Positions 43,020 to 53,527 of a stretch of DNA of 64,000 nt are shown piece by piece. The first letter of the stretch is position 1. Each line of letters starts with the position of its first letter. The DNA comes from Scytonematopsis contorta HA4267-MV1 (lineage in GTDB: Bacteria > Cyanobacteriota > Cyanobacteriia > Cyanobacteriales > Nostocaceae), in contig JAHHIC010000037.1 in NCBI GenBank assembly GCA_019359035.1, positions 62,001-126,000 on the forward strand, given 5' to 3'. Under the pieces are notes generated by a model. The model searched no databases. It saw nothing but the letters and a program-made list of their open reading frames with translations, and had not been told where the DNA came from. The translations under genes and the position numbers were made by a program.

Positions 43020-43307
43020 TTAAATATTGTCTGGAGAATTGCGTAAGCGCATCAATTGGCGTCGCATTTGTGGAGACGCTTTTATCTCATCAACTTTGTA
43101 GGCTTTTACTTGCTCTACTTGAGTTTCCAGAAAATCGTCGTTACCAGCGATAAAAGACTCTAGCAAAAATTGTATCAACTGCTCTTTATCACTCATGTCT
43201 CTTAAAAGACCAGCTTCCTCAATAATACGGAACTTGAGACTTATTTCGCACTCGAAAACACTGACTTCAACAGAATTTTTTTGAAGCGGTAATGGTTTAG
43301 AGTTCAT
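43020..43307 (-). CDS. Conserved hypothetical protein
   Basis: This is a 95-residue acidic protein: MNSKPLPLQKNSVEVSVFECEISLKFRIIEEAGLLRDMSDKEQLIQFLLESFI and so on. It has a beta-rich first half and helical second half, with MRRQLMRLRNSPDN at the end. Composition looks like a real cytoplasmic protein, but the family is not recognised. It stands alone in a gene-poor stretch. Confidence 0.6.
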   Translation of the reverse strand: MNSKPLPLQKNSVEVSVFECEISLKFRIIEEAGLLRDMSDKEQLIQFLLESFIAGNDDFLETQVEQVKAYKVDEIKASPQMRRQLMRLRNSPDNI

Positions 43308-44908: not shown

Positions 44909-46225
44909 ATGATTAAGCTCATATTTTTGCTTGTTATTGCTTTTCCTTTCCTGTACTCCAATTGTCTCGGTGCTGAATTGGTAGGACGTGCCGTTTTAAA
45001 TGCTGATACTTTTTCTCCCGGTTCAACTACAGCCCAGTTTAAAACAACTTCTCGCAAAACACCTTTTTTTTACGCGCAACCAGTGCAGGGTTTTTCTGCT
45101 GTAGTCTCTGGACCAAAATCAGGGACTTATTTTGTATTATCGGATAACGGTTTTGGTAGCAAAGTAAACTCTCCTGATTACGCACTGAGAATTTATGCTT
45201 TAGAACCTGATTTTGCTACCGGAAAAGTTTTTCCTGTTAATTTTAAAACTGGAGAAAGGCTCAATAATTTTAATCGTCAAAGCTTTTTGGAACTTAATGA
45301 TATAAATCGTAAAGTTAACTTCCCAATTGTTGCGGATGAAACAGTTTACCCTGGGAGTAATATCTCAGTAAGCCAAGTTATAAAAGAAAAACGCTTGCTA
45401 ACAGGTGGTGATTTTGATACCGAATCTTTTCTTCGGGTTAGCGATGGTACTTTTTGGTTAGGTGATGAGTTTGGTCCATTTTTGCTACATGTGGGAACCA
45501 ATGGAGAACTATTATCAGCTCCGATTCCAACACCTAACTTTCAAAAAATAGGAAATTTAAATTTTGTCCAATCTGTTGATAACCCCGAATTCGCGAATTT
45601 ACCACAATCCGACAAGCTCAACCGTGCCAACCTAGGAGGCTCCAAAGGTTTTGAAGGGATGGCTCTCAATGCTAGTGGCACTAAACTCTATCCTATATTG
45701 GAAGGGGCAATAGTCGGTGACAATCAGCAAAATCGTTTGTCAATTTATGAGTTTGACTTACAAAATAATAGTTATACAGGTAAATTATTTTACTACAAAT
45801 TAGAGAACCCGAAACATGCGATTGGTGAGTTAACTGCCATAAACGATAACGAATTTATAGTGATTGAACGAGACGCTAATCAAGGAGACCCCCGAAATTC
45901 AGCCTTTAAAAACCCTGCTCAGTTCAAACGTCTTTACAAAATTAATCTCCAGAAAGTAGATAATGAAGGTTTTGTAGAGAAAAAATTACTAGTAGATTTA
46001 CTTAATATATTTGACTTCAAAAGTATTGGTGGTAACGCAACTAAAAATGGTATTTTTTCATTTCCTTTCGTTACAATCGAAAGCGTGCTGCCTTTAGATG
46101 AAAGAACACTGCTTATAATTAACGACAATAATTATGCCGACAGTATAGGTCGAACTCCTGGACAAGTTGATAACACAGAATTTATAAAAATCCGTCTTGA
46201 CAAGCCGTTAGCAATTCGCAATTAG
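44909..46225 (+). CDS. Phytase-esterase-like secreted protein
   Basis: This is a 438-residue protein of the family called esterase-like activity of phytase. A short hydrophobic N-terminus ends near CLGA and may be a signal peptide. Family segments include GFSAVVSGPKSGTYFVLSDNGFGSKVNSPDY, GDFDTESFLRVSDGTFWLGDEFGPFLLHV, GFEGMALNASGTKLYPILEGAI, ELTAINDNEFIVIERD and LLIINDNNYADSIGR. It is a beta-propeller that may hydrolyse phosphate esters outside the cytoplasm. The last residues (LAIRN) are encoded by AATTCGC heptamers. Confidence 0.82.
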   Translation: MIKLIFLLVIAFPFLYSNCLGAELVGRAVLNADTFSPGSTTAQFKTTSRKTPFFYAQPVQGFSAVVSGPKSGTYFVLSDNGFGSKVNSPDYALRIYALEPDFATGKVFPVNFKTGERLNNFNRQSFLELNDINRKVNFPIVADETVYPGSNISVSQVIKEKRLLTGGDFDTESFLRVSDGTFWLGDEFGPFLLHVGTNGELLSAPIPTPNFQKIGNLNFVQSVDNPEFANLPQSDKLNRANLGGSKGFEGMALNASGTKLYPILEGAIVGDNQQNRLSIYEFDLQNNSYTGKLFYYKLENPKHAIGELTAINDNEFIVIERDANQGDPRNSAFKNPAQFKRLYKINLQKVDNEGFVEKKLLVDLLNIFDFKSIGGNATKNGIFSFPFVTIESVLPLDERTLLIINDNNYADSIGRTPGQVDNTEFIKIRLDKPLAIRN

Positions 46226-46706: not shown

Positions 46707-49187
46707 ATGACAATTGCTGATCGGTTAAAAACTATGGAAAATGACGCGGCAACGCTCTACTGTCCAAACGAATTTTGTCAGGCTCCTAATCCTCTCGACC
46801 ACAATTTTTGCCAACGATGCTCGACGCCTTTGCCAAAGCGTTTTCTTTGGGCTGTGGGTGATGGCTTGGACTTGGGAAAATCCGGGGATATTTTAGCTGA
46901 TCGCTATTTGGTTATTGAAAAAAATGTAGTTTTAGATACAAGACCGGGTTTAGTCCCACATACGCCAGAGATAGAGAGATTGCAGGAAATTAAACCTTAT
47001 TTGCGGCTATTTCCCTATCGTTTAAATGTGCCGCAGGTGTATGGGGTTTTGCCAACAAGCGACGGAGAAGGTCAGAACGATATTTTACTTTTGGAAAAAC
47101 CACCAATTACTGTGGGAGATATATTTCCCTACAAAGTGGAACTTTTAAGCGATTTAAGAACTGCTTGGAGTGATGCAACATCAATGCGTCAACTCAATTG
47201 GCTATGGCAAATAGCTCATTTGTGGCAACCTTTAGCGAGTGAAGGTGTCGCTTTAAGTTTACTCGACCCAGATTTACTGAGGGTAGAAGGCTCTCTGGTG
47301 CGATTGTTAGAACTGCGCTCGGACGGGGAAATGAAACCCCAGCTATCAGATTTAGGAGCTTTCTGGCAAGAAATATTAACAAAATCTAAACCTGCTGTAT
47401 CAGAGTTTATTGGCAACATTTGCCGTTCTCTGATTGATGGGAAAATACATTCTGCCGAGCAATTAATTATCGCTTTAGACCAAGGACTGGTTTACTTGGG
47501 AAGTAAGCAGTCACCAAACATTGTAGTTGCTACCACTACTGACACAGGGCCTAGTCGCGCACGTAACGAAGATGCTTGTTATCCTGCAAGTGATAGTCTC
47601 ATTAACAAACCACCACAGCAATCAGCGTTAGCAATTGTTTGTGATGGAATTGGGGGACACGAAGGAGGAAATGTAGCTTCTAATTTAGCAATTCAAACTA
47701 TTCAGCAGCAGTTACAGCAGTTAACAACTGTTAAGCGTGAAAACATTGACCCAGCGTATTTACTTGCTGATTTAGAACGAGTAACCGCAGCAGCTAACGA
47801 TAAAATTAGTCAGGTTAACGATAACGAAAACCGTCAAGGAAGACAACGCATGGGGACAACTGTGGTAATGGCTCTACCCATTGCCCATGAAATGTATATT
47901 ACTCATGTGGGGGATAGTCGCGCTTACTGGATTACTCGTCATGGCTGTTATCAAGTGACCCTTGATGATGATGTCGCTTCTCGTGAGGTACGTTTGGGTT
48001 ATGCTGTCTACCGCGAAGCATTGCTTGCAGGTGCGTCTGGCTCCTTAGTACAAGCATTAGGAATGGGTCAAAGTATGTCTTTACACCCAACATCTACTCG
48101 CTTTGTTCTTGATGAAGATAGTGTTTTTCTACTTTGTTCTGATGGTTTGAGCGACTATGACCGCGTTGAGCAGAACTGGGAAACAGAGATACTACCAATT
48201 CTGGATAATAAAACTGATGCAAAAAGTGTCATAGCAAAATTAGTGGAAATAGCTAATGAGCAAAATGGACATGATAACGTCACTATTGCCCTCACCCATT
48301 ACCAGTTGAAATATTTTGAACCAGAAACTCCTATCAAGGCAGAACTTCCCGATTTTTCTTCTTTGCCTCAACCAGAGAATAATGCTTTTACGGGAATAAT
48401 AGAAGCACAATCAGTCAATAGCCCTAACGCCAAAACTAAAGTACTAGCAGAATCAGCTTCGAGTAAAAACAATAATTTTAAACTTCCCTTGCAATTAATA
48501 ATACCCTCAATCCTGGCTGTCATAGCTGGTTCTGTAGGATTGTGGGCAATGAATATGCGAACTACTTCTGATGGTTTATCCTCACCTAAACCTGGTTCTG
48601 TGGGGACTTCTGGAAGTAATGCATCAGAGAACACATCAGGAAATGCATCACAAACTCCAACTTCAGAGCTTGGAGAGCCGAAACAATGGTCATTGCTGAC
48701 AACAAACCGAGATGTAATCTTTCAAAAACCTAACTCAGCAACACAAGAGTTTACAGCTCCCAAAGGTAGTGTTCTGCAAGTTACTAAAGTTAAATTAATA
48801 GGTAATATTATCAACCAAGACTACGACTTGACGCTGCAAATCTGTCCCACAACACCAAAACCAGAACCTACTCTAGGCAAGCGAGGAAACTCATCCAAGG
48901 ATATCCAGTTGCTGCCTCCAAAGGAAGAAGTTTCGATTTTATTCTCCAAAATTAAACCTGGTATCGCTTCCATTCAACCCGGAGACCTCAAAAAATGTTC
49001 GACAACTCCAAGCGATAGTTCCACTCCACCGATTGAAACTTCTCCATCACCGTCCAAGTCACCACCGGAAAAACCGGAACCAAGTCTACGCTCACAAAGT
49101 AAACAGATATCATTTCACGAAGGAAAAAGAAAAAATTTAGTAGGGATAAGCTCAAAAACTCGCTCAATTGCTAAAAAACTTGAATAA
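46707..49187 (+). CDS. PP2C-type phosphatase with N-terminal zinc ribbon and pseudokinase-like domain
   Basis: This is an 826-residue protein. A zinc ribbon (CPNEFCQAPNPLDHNFCQRC) occupies residues 19-38. Residues about 60-270 resemble a degenerate Ser/Thr kinase (GDILADRYLVIEKN at the start, LLDPDLLRVEGSLVRLLEL later) without HRD or DFG catalytic motifs. The PP2C domain follows (about 275-535): GPSRARNEDA, VCDGIGGHEGG, HVGDSRAYW, LLCSDGLSDY and GHDNVTIAL give the metal-binding Asp residues. One membrane segment lies near 595-615. A Ser/Pro-rich C-terminal part follows. It would remove phosphate from Ser/Thr. The next gene, CHAT-FHA, starts 104 bp downstream on the same strand. Confidence 0.88.
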   Translation: MTIADRLKTMENDAATLYCPNEFCQAPNPLDHNFCQRCSTPLPKRFLWAVGDGLDLGKSGDILADRYLVIEKNVVLDTRPGLVPHTPEIERLQEIKPYLRLFPYRLNVPQVYGVLPTSDGEGQNDILLLEKPPITVGDIFPYKVELLSDLRTAWSDATSMRQLNWLWQIAHLWQPLASEGVALSLLDPDLLRVEGSLVRLLELRSDGEMKPQLSDLGAFWQEILTKSKPAVSEFIGNICRSLIDGKIHSAEQLIIALDQGLVYLGSKQSPNIVVATTTDTGPSRARNEDACYPASDSLINKPPQQSALAIVCDGIGGHEGGNVASNLAIQTIQQQLQQLTTVKRENIDPAYLLADLERVTAAANDKISQVNDNENRQGRQRMGTTVVMALPIAHEMYITHVGDSRAYWITRHGCYQVTLDDDVASREVRLGYAVYREALLAGASGSLVQALGMGQSMSLHPTSTRFVLDEDSVFLLCSDGLSDYDRVEQNWETEILPILDNKTDAKSVIAKLVEIANEQNGHDNVTIALTHYQLKYFEPETPIKAELPDFSSLPQPENNAFTGIIEAQSVNSPNAKTKVLAESASSKNNNFKLPLQLIIPSILAVIAGSVGLWAMNMRTTSDGLSSPKPGSVGTSGSNASENTSGNASQTPTSELGEPKQWSLLTTNRDVIFQKPNSATQEFTAPKGSVLQVTKVKLIGNIINQDYDLTLQICPTTPKPEPTLGKRGNSSKDIQLLPPKEEVSILFSKIKPGIASIQPGDLKKCSTTPSDSSTPPIETSPSPSKSPPEKPEPSLRSQSKQISFHEGKRKNLVGISSKTRSIAKKLE

Positions 49188-49291
49188 TATAGCTGATATT
49201 CCTTATAAAATACTCAGGGGTGTAACCTGTTTACCTCTGGATAACTATTATTAATTAAATGTTTCATTTATATTTGTTAGATTAAAAATCC

Positions 49292-50887
49292 ATGCCATCC
49301 CTAAACCTGGCGATTGACCGTCTCACAAACACAGGTAATCATCAACACTTCGCCATCTGGGTGGTAAATGCTCCTGACCCTGGTGGACATACTTTGCGTG
49401 ACTGTTTCTGGCCTGAAAATTTAACTGGGCTGTGGCAACAATGGCACGAGATGTTTTCCACAGATAATCCTTTAGAGCTGTTTCCAGAAGAAACACCATC
49501 AACAGCAAATCCCAATAGCAACAATATACCGCTAGCTGTTTTACCCCCCGGTAACGGTAAAGGTGTATTCTTAATGCAATCCTTGGCAATTGGCTTATGG
49601 CGCTGGGTATTTGAAGGGAAAATTCTTAACAGTATGTCGTATGCTCAAGGTAGCGCAAACGCTAGTCAAACACCTTTACGACTTCGCTTAGAAATTCGTG
49701 ACCCGCGTTTAATTTACCTACCTTGGGAAATTATGCAGCCTGAAGTTGGTCAAGCTGCTATATCCCTATATCCAAATTTATTGTTCAGTCGAACTTCCAG
49801 CAAAGTTGACCCATTGCCAACCTTAAAAGGCGACCAAGCTTTAAATATCTTGTTAGTTTTGGGGGAAGACGCTCGTGAATTACAACTACAAGAAGAAGCT
49901 GATTTGATTACGCAGAGCCTTTCGGATAGTGCTTCAATAGGTAGTAATCCTTTGGGCTACGCTCCATGTATGGTGAAAACATTGTTGCAACCAACCCCGC
50001 AAGAATTAATAGCTGAAGTTTCTAAAGGGATATATAATGCCTTCTTTTACTCCGGACATGGTGAAACTGGGCCAGACGGAGGTTTTTTACTTGTGCGACC
50101 AGGTATGGCTCAAAACGGTGTGGAATTGGCACAGGTATTAAGTCGTAGCGGGGTGAAATTAGCAGTCTTTAATGCTTGTTGGTTAGCAAAACCGGGCTTA
50201 GTAAATGATAAAGCTGTACCTTACAGTAGTTTAGCGGAAGTACTAATTAGTCAAGGAGTACCAGCGGTTCTGGGGATGCGGGATGTGATTACTATCCCAG
50301 AAAGCAAAAGCTTTATTAAAGTTTTAGCGACTGCACTCAGAAAACGCGAACCTATTGACCAAGCTGTGACAGAAGCAAGACGAAGATTATTAACAGAAAA
50401 TGGTTTTAATAATTCAGCTTGGACTTTACCAATACTCTATTTACATCCCCAATTTAACGGCGAAATTTTACAAAATTTTGATGACGGAATAACAATATTA
50501 CCTACATTAGATACAAATATTCCCGATGATATAATTTTGCAATCAAAGGCTAGTTTACGCTCTCTGTCTGGAGGTCTGAGCTATAATCTCCAAAATGGAG
50601 TTACCTATATTGGAAGAGGTGGAAATAATAATATTGTAATACCAGAATTATCCGTTTCCAAACGCCATGCAGAAATTTGTTTCCGTATAACCCAAACAGG
50701 AAATACTCCCCCCACTAGGACTTATTTCCTCAAAGATGTCTCTACCTACGGGACAACTTGGATTGTAGATTCTAATAGTTCCTTACAACAAATTCCCGGT
50801 AAGGAAATCTCCCTACAGTCAGGAATGCAAATAAAATTTGGCAGCACAAGAAGCCAGAGTTGGGTATTTAACATCGAAGATTCCTAG
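49292..50887 (+). CDS. CHAT protease domain fused to a C-terminal FHA domain
   Basis: This is a 531-residue soluble protein. The CHAT (caspase-like) domain covers about residues 120-395: LRLRLEIRDPRLIYLPWEIMQP, catalytic His256 in FFYSGHGE and catalytic Cys296 in AVFNACW, then SLAEVLISQGVPAVLGMRD. Residues about 420-525 are an FHA domain (YIGRGGNNNIVIPELSVSKRHAEI, with GR, S and RH in place), which binds phosphothreonine. The combination predicts a protease targeted to, or switched by, phosphoproteins. The upstream PP2C gene may reverse that signal. No TPR region is present, unlike most CHAT proteins. Confidence 0.9.
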   Translation: MPSLNLAIDRLTNTGNHQHFAIWVVNAPDPGGHTLRDCFWPENLTGLWQQWHEMFSTDNPLELFPEETPSTANPNSNNIPLAVLPPGNGKGVFLMQSLAIGLWRWVFEGKILNSMSYAQGSANASQTPLRLRLEIRDPRLIYLPWEIMQPEVGQAAISLYPNLLFSRTSSKVDPLPTLKGDQALNILLVLGEDARELQLQEEADLITQSLSDSASIGSNPLGYAPCMVKTLLQPTPQELIAEVSKGIYNAFFYSGHGETGPDGGFLLVRPGMAQNGVELAQVLSRSGVKLAVFNACWLAKPGLVNDKAVPYSSLAEVLISQGVPAVLGMRDVITIPESKSFIKVLATALRKREPIDQAVTEARRRLLTENGFNNSAWTLPILYLHPQFNGEILQNFDDGITILPTLDTNIPDDIILQSKASLRSLSGGLSYNLQNGVTYIGRGGNNNIVIPELSVSKRHAEICFRITQTGNTPPTRTYFLKDVSTYGTTWIVDSNSSLQQIPGKEISLQSGMQIKFGSTRSQSWVFNIEDS

Positions 50888-50908
50888 TTATAATAGTTAC
50901 CTGAATAA

Positions 50909-50945
50909 TGGGGAGTGGGGAGTAGGGAGTGGGGAGTGGGAAGTT
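50909..50945. repeat. GGGGAGT heptamers after the CHAT-FHA gene
   Basis: About five units. The rest of 50946-51145 holds T/C-rich sequence and no gene. Confidence 0.75.
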
Positions 50946-51145
50946 GGGAATTTATATTCTTAGTAATCTTCCTCATCTCCCTCATCCTCACCCTCCCTTA
51001 TTTTTCTAATCACCCCAATTTACCCACTCCCATCACGGATCACTCTCCGTTCCCGAACCAAAAGCAAAATCAATTTTTTGCGGAAATGAGACTTTAAACG
51101 CTGTAGCTGTCAGTACACCCAATTGAATTACCAGGAGTAAACAAA

Positions 51146-51733
51146 ATGACTCGCAAATCACAAAAACAAGTAAAGCCTTCTAACGTCGATTTACAACTTT
51201 TAGACGCACTTCTCGGTCCAGAAGATGGAGCATATCCCTGGGATGTTACTTCTGCTGAGTCGGAAGCTTACTTTCTTGACTTAGAAGAAAATTTTCCGAT
51301 GCAAGATGTACTAGACGAAGAACTGCAAGAACGTTCCGATGCTTTCTACAATAACCTCGATAATCTTTGGGTCAAACACTACAATGATGATACAAATATT
51401 GTAGTACGAATTCAAGAAAGTTTGCAGCAGCATTTTGCAGGACGAGGTGTACCACAAAATTGGTTAAAGTCTATAGCTCAGAAAGCGGTAGAAGTTTTTG
51501 AAAGCAAGCAACAAGCAGCAGGTGAGCAATTAGTGTTGTGTGTTAGCTCATTACTACCTAGTTGGGGAACAGAAGATTTGATAAATTTAGCACGTCCTTA
51601 TGCGTATGCGACTAAAAGTAAAAGCGAAGGGCAAACTAATAATCGTCAGTGGACAGCCTTATCAGAGACAGAACAAGCAAAAATAAGTTTAGCGATTGCC
51701 CATCATGCGTTAGAAGAATTAAAGAAATCTTAA
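51146..51733 (+). CDS. Conserved-looking acidic hypothetical protein in the phosphosignalling block
   Basis: This is a 195-residue soluble, acidic protein, well started (ATG 51146 behind CAGGAGTAA). The first half is strongly acidic (LLGPEDGAYPWDVTSAESEAYFLDLEE). The second half is helical with LPSWGTEDLINLARPYAYATK. It has no known motif, signal peptide or membrane segment. It lies between the CHAT-FHA gene and the convergent FHA-PrsW gene and could be a substrate or adaptor of either; that is inference from position only. Confidence 0.7.
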   Translation: MTRKSQKQVKPSNVDLQLLDALLGPEDGAYPWDVTSAESEAYFLDLEENFPMQDVLDEELQERSDAFYNNLDNLWVKHYNDDTNIVVRIQESLQQHFAGRGVPQNWLKSIAQKAVEVFESKQQAAGEQLVLCVSSLLPSWGTEDLINLARPYAYATKSKSEGQTNNRQWTALSETEQAKISLAIAHHALEELKKS

Positions 51734-51759
51734 ATATAATTAAAATATTGTGCTTTAAA

Positions 51760-51806
51760 AGTATTGTGTCTGAAGAATATTGTGTCTGGAAATATTGTGT
51801 CTGACT
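51760..51806. repeat. Three TATTGTGTCTG direct repeats
   Basis: TATTGTGTCTG occurs three times, at about 20-bp intervals, just after the acidic hypothetical gene. It might be a protein-binding array or a simple duplication. Confidence 0.6.
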
Positions 51807-52016
51807 AATTTTTCATATTGTATAGTTTGCCCGTACAGCCTTAAGATGACCAACAACAGCCTATAAGTGGCTAGAAAGTTGTGCTGTTCAAAAACTTCAA
51901 ATCTTTACCTTATTTCTTAAGGTATAAGTAATCCGGCATACATCAAAATTAATCACTATCCGGTTTTACTATCATCTACCCAAAGAGATATAAACAAAAT
52001 GAAATGTGCTCCCTAC

Positions 52017-52150
52017 TATCCAACTCCCAACTCTCCACTCCCAACTCCCCACTCCCAACTCCCCACTCCCAACTCCCCACTCCCAACTCCCCACTCCCAA
52101 CTCCCCATTCCCAACTCCCCACTCCCCACTCCCCATTCCCAACTCCCCAC
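52017..52150. repeat. CCCAACT/CCCCACT heptamer array
   Basis: About 18 seven-base units end at the stop codon of the FHA-PrsW gene. The array separates this convergent gene from the block upstream. Confidence 0.92.
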
Positions 52151-53527
52151 TCAATTACGACCGATAAAGCGGGTTGCAAAATTTTGCTCACGTGTGGGTG
52201 AAAGCGCTCGTGCTTTAAGAATCGCAGCCATTAAAAAGGCATAAGCCACTACCCCAACAATTACTAACAGTAGGTTGTTAATTACTCCGGTAGCATTCCA
52301 CAAAGCATGAAGTGCTGATGAGGTAATGTAACCGACTAATAAAATTTGAACACTCCGACGAGGTTTGAGTACAGCCAAGCCAATAAAATAGCCAAAATAA
52401 CCGCTGTAAGCCATATGACCCGCAACAGAACCCAAGATTCTAGGTATTAGAAGTTGCAATCCAACTAAGTCACCAGCCGCAGCAGATGAGCCTGCTTGTT
52501 GTTTTACAGCTAAAGATATCTCTGGCACATACTGTCCAAGTGTTTCTACTAAAGTAAATCCTAAAGCCGAAGCCGCTCCTAATAGAATGCCATCAAGAGG
52601 TTCAGAAACTCCAATACGTTCGCGTAAAGGAGATGGAAGTCCTTTTCCAAACAAATAAGCACCCAGTATAGGTAATGCTTTAAGTAATTCTTCCATCAAG
52701 CCTGCACCAAAAAACATTTTTAAGAATAGTTCAGTGAAAGTTATTGCCTCTCCTTCTTGAGGTATGCGACCAGGTAAAATGTCACGAAATACGTGTATAA
52801 ATAAATCTAATATAGGACTTAATAAAATTAACGTTGTACTACAAGCTGCAGCCATTAATACCCACCAAGGTTTTTGCTTTCCACATAGTTGGTAAATAAA
52901 ATAGTAGGCAGCAGAGGCAATATAGGTGGCAACGATAAATTTGTTTGTATTTGGCTCACCAACCGTAGCAAACATTAATACAACAAACACGACAGTAATA
53001 ATACCTGGTAAAAGATAGGCTTTACGAGTTAAATCTTTACCTGTTGAGGCAATAGGAAAAAGTTGGGTAAAGCTGACAGAATCGTTTCTTGATGGTTTTT
53101 CGTAGCTATTATTTGTTGATATTTGTGTTCTGGAGTTCAAACTCATCACGGTTGCTGGGTAATGAGCTTCTTCGTATTCAAAAATAAATTCTGGGCCGTC
53201 CTGACCCAAGGCAATACGGTCACCAGGGTGTAATTCCTGACTGCCATGCAATCGTTGTCCGTTTAAATAAGTACCATTGGCACTCGTCAAATCATAAATT
53301 ACCCAGCTATTTCCATCAGGAGAACTCCCTAAAGGGCGAATTACGGCATGACGACGAGATACCATACGATATTTGATGGCATCTAATACAATTTCGCAAC
53401 TGGGGTCGCGTCCGATTACCATCTCTTGACTGACCAATAGAGAGTAACGAGATAATGCCCCATATGTTGTTAAGTTAGCAGACGCTAGCCGCAGATATGC
53501 ATTTTTTCTTGCGTATTTGCCTGTCAT
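52151..53527 (-). CDS. FHA domain fused to a PrsW-type membrane protease
   Basis: This is a 458-residue protein. An FHA domain (about residues 28-110) has G39-R40, S57 with H60 in VSRRHAV, and NGTYLNGQ. A linker leads to at least eight membrane segments (from about 170). These carry PrsW motifs: MEELLKALPILGAY (EE-x2-K type, near 279), ETLGQY, HMAYSGYFGYFIG and HALWNATG. PrsW in Bacillus cleaves the anti-sigma factor RsiW. Here the cytoplasmic FHA domain suggests that phosphothreonine proteins recruit or gate the protease. It faces the CHAT-FHA/PP2C genes. Confidence 0.9.
   Translation of the reverse strand: MTGKYARKNAYLRLASANLTTYGALSRYSLLVSQEMVIGRDPSCEIVLDAIKYRMVSRRHAVIRPLGSSPDGNSWVIYDLTSANGTYLNGQRLHGSQELHPGDRIALGQDGPEFIFEYEEAHYPATVMSLNSRTQISTNNSYEKPSRNDSVSFTQLFPIASTGKDLTRKAYLLPGIITVVFVVLMFATVGEPNTNKFIVATYIASAAYYFIYQLCGKQKPWWVLMAAACSTTLILLSPILDLFIHVFRDILPGRIPQEGEAITFTELFLKMFFGAGLMEELLKALPILGAYLFGKGLPSPLRERIGVSEPLDGILLGAASALGFTLVETLGQYVPEISLAVKQQAGSSAAAGDLVGLQLLIPRILGSVAGHMAYSGYFGYFIGLAVLKPRRSVQILLVGYITSSALHALWNATGVINNLLLVIVGVVAYAFLMAAILKARALSPTREQNFATRFIGRN

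Follow-up and report, generated by a model that had tools for sequence, protein, structure and literature searches.

At positions 46,707 to 53,527 of the window, by which we mean the whole 64,000-nucleotide stretch of contig JAHHIC010000037.1 from the cyanobacterium Scytonematopsis contorta HA4267-MV1 (a genome of 10.66 Mb), lie four genes that encode a predicted PP2C-type membrane phosphatase, a caspase-like CHAT protease carrying an FHA domain (CHAT-FHA), a small acidic protein and, facing these three, an FHA domain fused to a PrsW-type intramembrane protease (FHA-PrsW). The original prediction, made from the letters of the window, read them as a module in which threonine phosphorylation directs the two proteases and the phosphatase resets the system. 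All four genes are present where it placed them, with their catalytic residues intact, and we find that the phosphatase, CHAT-FHA and acidic genes, in this order, are an old ancestral co-directional unit in the class Cyanobacteriia, often with FHA-PrsW facing it.

Domains and conserved residues of the four proteins

Both domains of CHAT-FHA are recognised by Pfam in one protein (CHAT, PF12770, 44.2 bits against a cut-off of 24; FHA, 41.6 bits against 20.7), and the catalytic His256 and Cys296, already noted as intact in the window, are invariant in an initial set of 22 homologues and then in 120. Within the FHA domain G441, R442, S456 and H459 are conserved (R442 and S456 at 100% and H459 at 98% across the 120 proteins), and both FHA domains of the locus keep the Arg and Ser expected to bind phosphate. 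We read CHAT-FHA as a putative caspase-like protease with an intact FHA phosphate site, for which protease activity and phosphopeptide binding are predicted.

The nearest characterised CHAT protein that we found is HetF (Anabaena alr3546), which is likewise cyanobacterial and shares with CHAT-FHA the CHAT domain at about 34% identity over 300 residues. The score of CHAT-FHA against the HetF family of NCBIfam (NF045509; E 2e-33, 115.7 bits) is far under the 1200-bit cut-off for membership. CHAT-FHA is also shorter (531 amino acids against about 840) and has a C-terminal FHA domain and no transmembrane helix where HetF has transmembrane and TPR regions (PMC8406250). The two proteins coexist in most genomes, and CHAT-FHA is, to judge by its sequence, HetF-like and not HetF itself. 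HetF cleaves a known protein substrate, PatU3 (PMC12288457). A search of a literature library for the combination of CHAT and FHA domains in cyanobacteria found no paper there. A second CHAT-FHA copy occurs without any of the neighbours in Brasilonema sp. UFV-L1, and in Nostoc sp. T09 about 3.7 kb separates the PP2C match from CHAT.

The phosphatase, whose true start is probably 46734, matches Pfam PP2C_2 at 46.4 bits (cut-off 24). Its metal ligands D289, D313, G314, D479, D523 and N524 are invariant among homologues, and its best match by fold in Foldseek is 1txo (PstP; E 1e-16). The PP2C domain spans about residues 275-535 and is preceded by a four-cysteine, zinc-ribbon-like N-terminus and a middle domain with no assigned family. 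After it come a transmembrane helix (597-615) and a C-terminal domain in which two cysteines, C713 and C764, are conserved; a transmembrane helix after residue 540 is found in 97 of 97 homologues, and at least two cysteines beyond it in 93 of the 97. A pseudokinase at residues 60-270 was considered and rejected, with hhalign probabilities of 0.3-0.5% against Hanks kinases and the order of helices and strands alone being suggestive. Similar to the Stp1/PstP-type systems, the locus brings a PP2C fold and FHA readers into what may be one pathway, but differs from them in having its FHA readers fused to proteases and in the lack of a linked kinase.

FHA-PrsW exceeds the Pfam cut-offs for both of its parts (PrsW-protease, PF13367, 126.4 bits against 23.5; FHA, 71.8 against 20.7). 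The EExxK motif (E279, E280, K283) and the histidines H371 and H407, which it has in common with the PrsW glutamic intramembrane protease, are invariant in 108 of 108 homologues; unlike PrsW, it has an added N-terminal FHA domain and stays under the PrsW equivalog cut-off (NF033739; 24.2 against 225). This FHA domain is canonical (Arg40, Ser57, His60 and N84-G-T) and is predicted to bind phosphopeptides. Two further copies of FHA-PrsW were seen: a second (57% identity) at L228 8180-11899 (G000:C69), divergent from and 318 bp away from an intact gene for a Hanks-type Ser/Thr kinase, and a third (46%) at L229 6485-7753 (G000:C85), beside an apparent chaperone-usher (spore-coat-like) cluster.

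The acidic protein has no Pfam family and no significant NCBIfam match. Its AlphaFold model is all-helical (predicted local distance difference test score 79), no PDB match by fold is better than E 2, and no match by sequence is better than E 0.2. Its homologues have a mean charge of -20, near-invariant YPW-N/D and R-P motifs and two conserved Ser. The GTAN8TAC palindrome upstream of the gene sits within a conserved block, TTTTTTGCGGAAAT...TTGTAGCTGTCAATACC, which is a hint of separate, possibly nitrogen-linked control of the acidic gene. Over the window as a whole (1-64000) there are 28 GTAN8TAC sites against 13.1 in shuffled sequences, and 0 of 100 shuffles reach 28. Dense short tandem repeats of the CCAACTCCCCACT type fill 52010-52150, between the acidic gene and FHA-PrsW, and a gene for a phytase-like esterase (44909-46225) lies between ndhM and the phosphatase gene and is found in the flanks of only 5 of 80 named loci.

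Table 1. Features of the locus, in window positions
Feature	Position	Strand	Basis or remark
PP2C-type membrane phosphatase, PrpJ-like	46707..49187	+	Pfam, transmembrane helix, metal ligands, fold
CHAT-FHA: caspase-like CHAT protease (His256/Cys296) with C-terminal FHA domain	49292..50887	+	Pfam, alignment of homologues
Small acidic protein, predicted all-helical	51146..51733	+	Family with no Pfam, significant NCBIfam or PDB match
GTAN8TAC (NtcA-type) palindrome in the conserved block 5' of the acidic gene	51103..51116	+	In 62 of 80 Nostocales copies
FHA-PrsW: FHA domain fused to PrsW-type intramembrane protease, convergent to the acidic gene	52151..53527	-	Pfam; alr1728 orthologue by locus mapping
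PF18068 protein, asr1734 orthologue by locus mapping	43020..43307	-	Locus landmark, outside the module

Conservation of the neighbourhood and co-inheritance

Our survey of the neighbourhood covered 120 genomes from the order, 242 from the class (by profile searches) and 80 named Nostocales loci. In the order sample, 78 genomes have both CHAT-FHA and the acidic gene, and in 49 of these, from 16 families, the two are neighbours, invariably on one strand. CHAT-FHA and PP2C are neighbours in 38 of 73 genomes (13 families, invariably on one strand and with PP2C upstream), and the acidic gene and FHA-PrsW in 40 of 63 (13 families, invariably on opposite strands). The full order of PP2C, CHAT-FHA, acidic gene and PrsW is present in nearly all 80 named loci. 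For other families of the class, PP2C-CHAT-acidic is found in five sampled loci, one of them with PrsW facing; of two further loci from these families, L238 carries CHAT-acidic but no PP2C, and L237 is truncated by the start of its contig. This gene order is far beyond chance. The original prediction had named the lack of a conserved neighbourhood in related genomes as the observation that would count against it; we find the opposite, because the module is real and conserved, and the neighbourhood is kept well beyond Nostocales. The co-occurrence that it expected among CHAT-FHA, FHA-PrsW and the phosphatase holds in part: PP2C, CHAT-FHA and the acidic gene form the same-strand unit, but FHA-PrsW is only loosely tied to it, many genomes having CHAT-FHA without FHA-PrsW and others PrsW without CHAT, and it is not an obligate member of the module.

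The acidic gene is inherited together with CHAT-FHA across the 242 genomes of the class, with 114 carrying both, 125 neither, 1 the acidic gene only and 2 CHAT-FHA only (phi 0.975), which bears out the suspected tie between the acidic protein and the CHAT protease. All 93 pairs that lie within 2 kb of each other in this sample, from 17 families, share a strand and have the acidic gene downstream of CHAT-FHA, and within three families (f8, f30 and f21) the two genes are present or absent together. Of the two CHAT-only genomes of the class, one has a fragment of the acidic gene truncated by the end of its contig, and the other has a contig that stops 142 bases beyond CHAT; of the two in the order sample, one genome is 61% complete and one has a broken CHAT gene. 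Since the CHAT-only cases come down to contig ends, an incomplete genome and a broken gene, there is essentially no case of CHAT-FHA without the acidic gene. The acidic gene does occur without CHAT-FHA: in one family (f18), four of the five acidic-only genomes whose loci were read (L149, L150, L231 and L232) keep PP2C, the acidic gene and PrsW in place with CHAT missing, and because the acidic gene persists without CHAT, its product has some other role. Such a one-sided pattern is consistent with a protease working on the acidic protein, or being held by it, and with a separate role for the acidic protein itself.

Correspondence with the alr1728–asr1734 locus of Anabaena

In the FurA regulon of Anabaena PCC 7120, one FurA box lies 388 nucleotides upstream of asr1734 and another 205 nucleotides upstream of alr1728 (PMC4005646). 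An exact match to the asr1734 box is found once in 2.54 Mb of loci, in Nostoc parmelioides, where it stands 387 nucleotides upstream of the PF18068 gene adjoining the module. In the same locus the alr1728 box is matched with 3 mismatches 204 nucleotides upstream of FHA-PrsW (19 of 3000 shuffled sites match equally well at that place), and both distances differ from the published values by the same single base. A search for the alr1728 box in 218 genomes of the family found no PCC 7120 copy. The strand pattern of alr1728, all1729, all1730, all1731 and asr1734 in PCC 7120 is the arrangement in the window, and all1731 is prpJ, which encodes a plasma-membrane PP2C (PMC6161253). From the geometry of the FurA boxes, the strand pattern and the identity of prpJ as a PP2C gene, we assign the phosphatase to All1731/PrpJ, CHAT-FHA to All1730, the acidic protein to All1729 and FHA-PrsW to Alr1728. 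The four proteins are putative orthologues of Alr1728–All1731 by locus mapping.

PrpJ and the phosphatase of the window are both PP2C proteins with a transmembrane helix, at the same locus by FurA box and locus-tag strands; the protease neighbours go unmentioned in the literature that we found. Mutation of prpJ leads to the loss of a heterocyst glycolipid and of N2 fixation under oxic conditions (PMC6161253), FurA activates alr1728, which is one of the Fox genes (PMC4005646), and all1729 was at first included in a core set for filament formation and later removed (PMC2821919). All1730 and All1729 appear to be uncharacterised so far. The asr1734 orthologue lies 3.4 kb upstream of the module, and asr1734 has been described as a negative regulator of heterocyst differentiation.

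Proposed pathway and alternatives

The best explanation as a whole, to which we give about an even chance, is that the prpJ locus is an old cyanobacterial signalling-protease module. In this model the phosphatase would sit in the inner membrane, sense a signal from the envelope or from outside through an outer domain that is probably disulfide-bonded, and set the phosphorylation state of a protein in the cytoplasm. Judging from the intact residues of the FHA and CHAT domains of CHAT-FHA, its FHA domain would read that state and thereby localise or switch the protease, which would act on or through its obligate acidic helical partner, by analogy to HetF acting on PatU3. FHA-PrsW would be a second, separable membrane output, and the locus may serve envelope maturation in heterocyst formers and a more general role elsewhere, for example in envelope or septum control. 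Our more specific proposal is that a class-wide phospho-controlled caspase-like pathway, parallel to HetF-PatU3, acts in cell-envelope maturation and consists of PrpJ, a CHAT protease gated by its FHA domain, and a substrate or inhibitor dedicated to that protease; this is possible and is offered tentatively.

Several observations weigh against this reading. Control of the proteases by phosphothreonine is, as are all the enzyme activities, a prediction from sequence, and a second alr1728 FurA box has no match in the Nostoc parmelioides locus. The acidic protein, which the original prediction had considered as a possible substrate, has no recognisable conserved cleavage site and no conserved Thr (the best column is 61% Thr) and is therefore no obvious FHA ligand; with only Ser conserved, it was rejected as a conserved phosphothreonine ligand, and its sequence makes a substrate, inhibitor or adaptor more likely. 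In the order sample nine genomes carry the acidic gene but not CHAT-FHA, and the co-occurrence counts behind the phi value ignore kinship in the species tree and include small genomes that lack both genes. Kinase linkage is seen in 1 of the 80 named loci and in 0 of 20 unlinked PrsW neighbourhoods, and a linked kinase, found otherwise beside one FHA-PrsW paralogue, was rejected as a member of the module. Candidates for a writer kinase are available in the genome of the window, which has 84 kinase-family matches, most of them Hanks-type kinases over the cut-off.

That the acidic protein is a dedicated inhibitor or holdase, which keeps the CHAT protease safe until its FHA domain is engaged, and not a substrate, seems to us doubtful. 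The one-sided dependence, in which the protease is never without its partner and the partner is tolerated without the protease, is what an inhibitor predicts, and the strong negative charge and near-invariant motifs suit a binding protein; however, the acidic gene lies downstream of CHAT behind a conserved upstream block of its own, and it is kept after the loss of CHAT in five genomes of one family, where a pure inhibitor would be needless. It is unlikely that phosphorylation plays no part in gating, with the FHA domain being structural or a scaffold and PP2C acting on unrelated substrates. In most CHAT-FHA proteins Tyr or Phe replaces the Asn of the customary FHA motif N-G-T, which speaks both for this alternative and against phosphate-controlled gating; no kinase is linked, and in about half of the genomes PP2C shows no linkage (a figure inflated by contig breaks). 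Against it stand the invariance of Arg442 and Ser456 and near-invariance of His459, and the position of PP2C as the upstream same-strand neighbour in 13 families, with PP2C overlapping or nearly abutting CHAT in other families.

We consider it improbable that the genes are merely old neighbours, kept in synteny without functional linkage. NarM and nitrate reductase genes are likewise retained nearby in many Nostocales, but across the class CHAT-FHA and the acidic gene remain in the same genome even when unlinked (21 of the 114 genomes with both hold them non-adjacent), and within families f8, f30 and f21 they are jointly present or absent. CHAT proteases occur in defence systems, and one could imagine the locus as a system for phage defence or cell death with CHAT as its effector; we regard this as highly improbable, since PADLOC gives no match for any of the four proteins, the genes are retained class-wide in a fixed neighbourhood, and the locus maps to heterocyst-maturation genes. 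The cell-death and anti-sigma factor targets suggested earlier find no support, given the PADLOC result and a literature on the mapped locus that points to heterocyst maturation.

The original prediction is supported in part. The proposed mechanism, proteases under phosphorylation control, is plausible, and the module is broader and better supported than could be seen from the window. The locus unites prpJ and the Fox gene alr1728, which were known separately, in one conserved arrangement with a HetF-like protease, so far unstudied, and the partner that constantly accompanies it, and it suggests a concrete, testable route by which a protease could act downstream of PrpJ. The unit occurs throughout the class and is far from confined to heterocyst formers, so it may point to a general form of phospho-proteolytic control in cyanobacteria.

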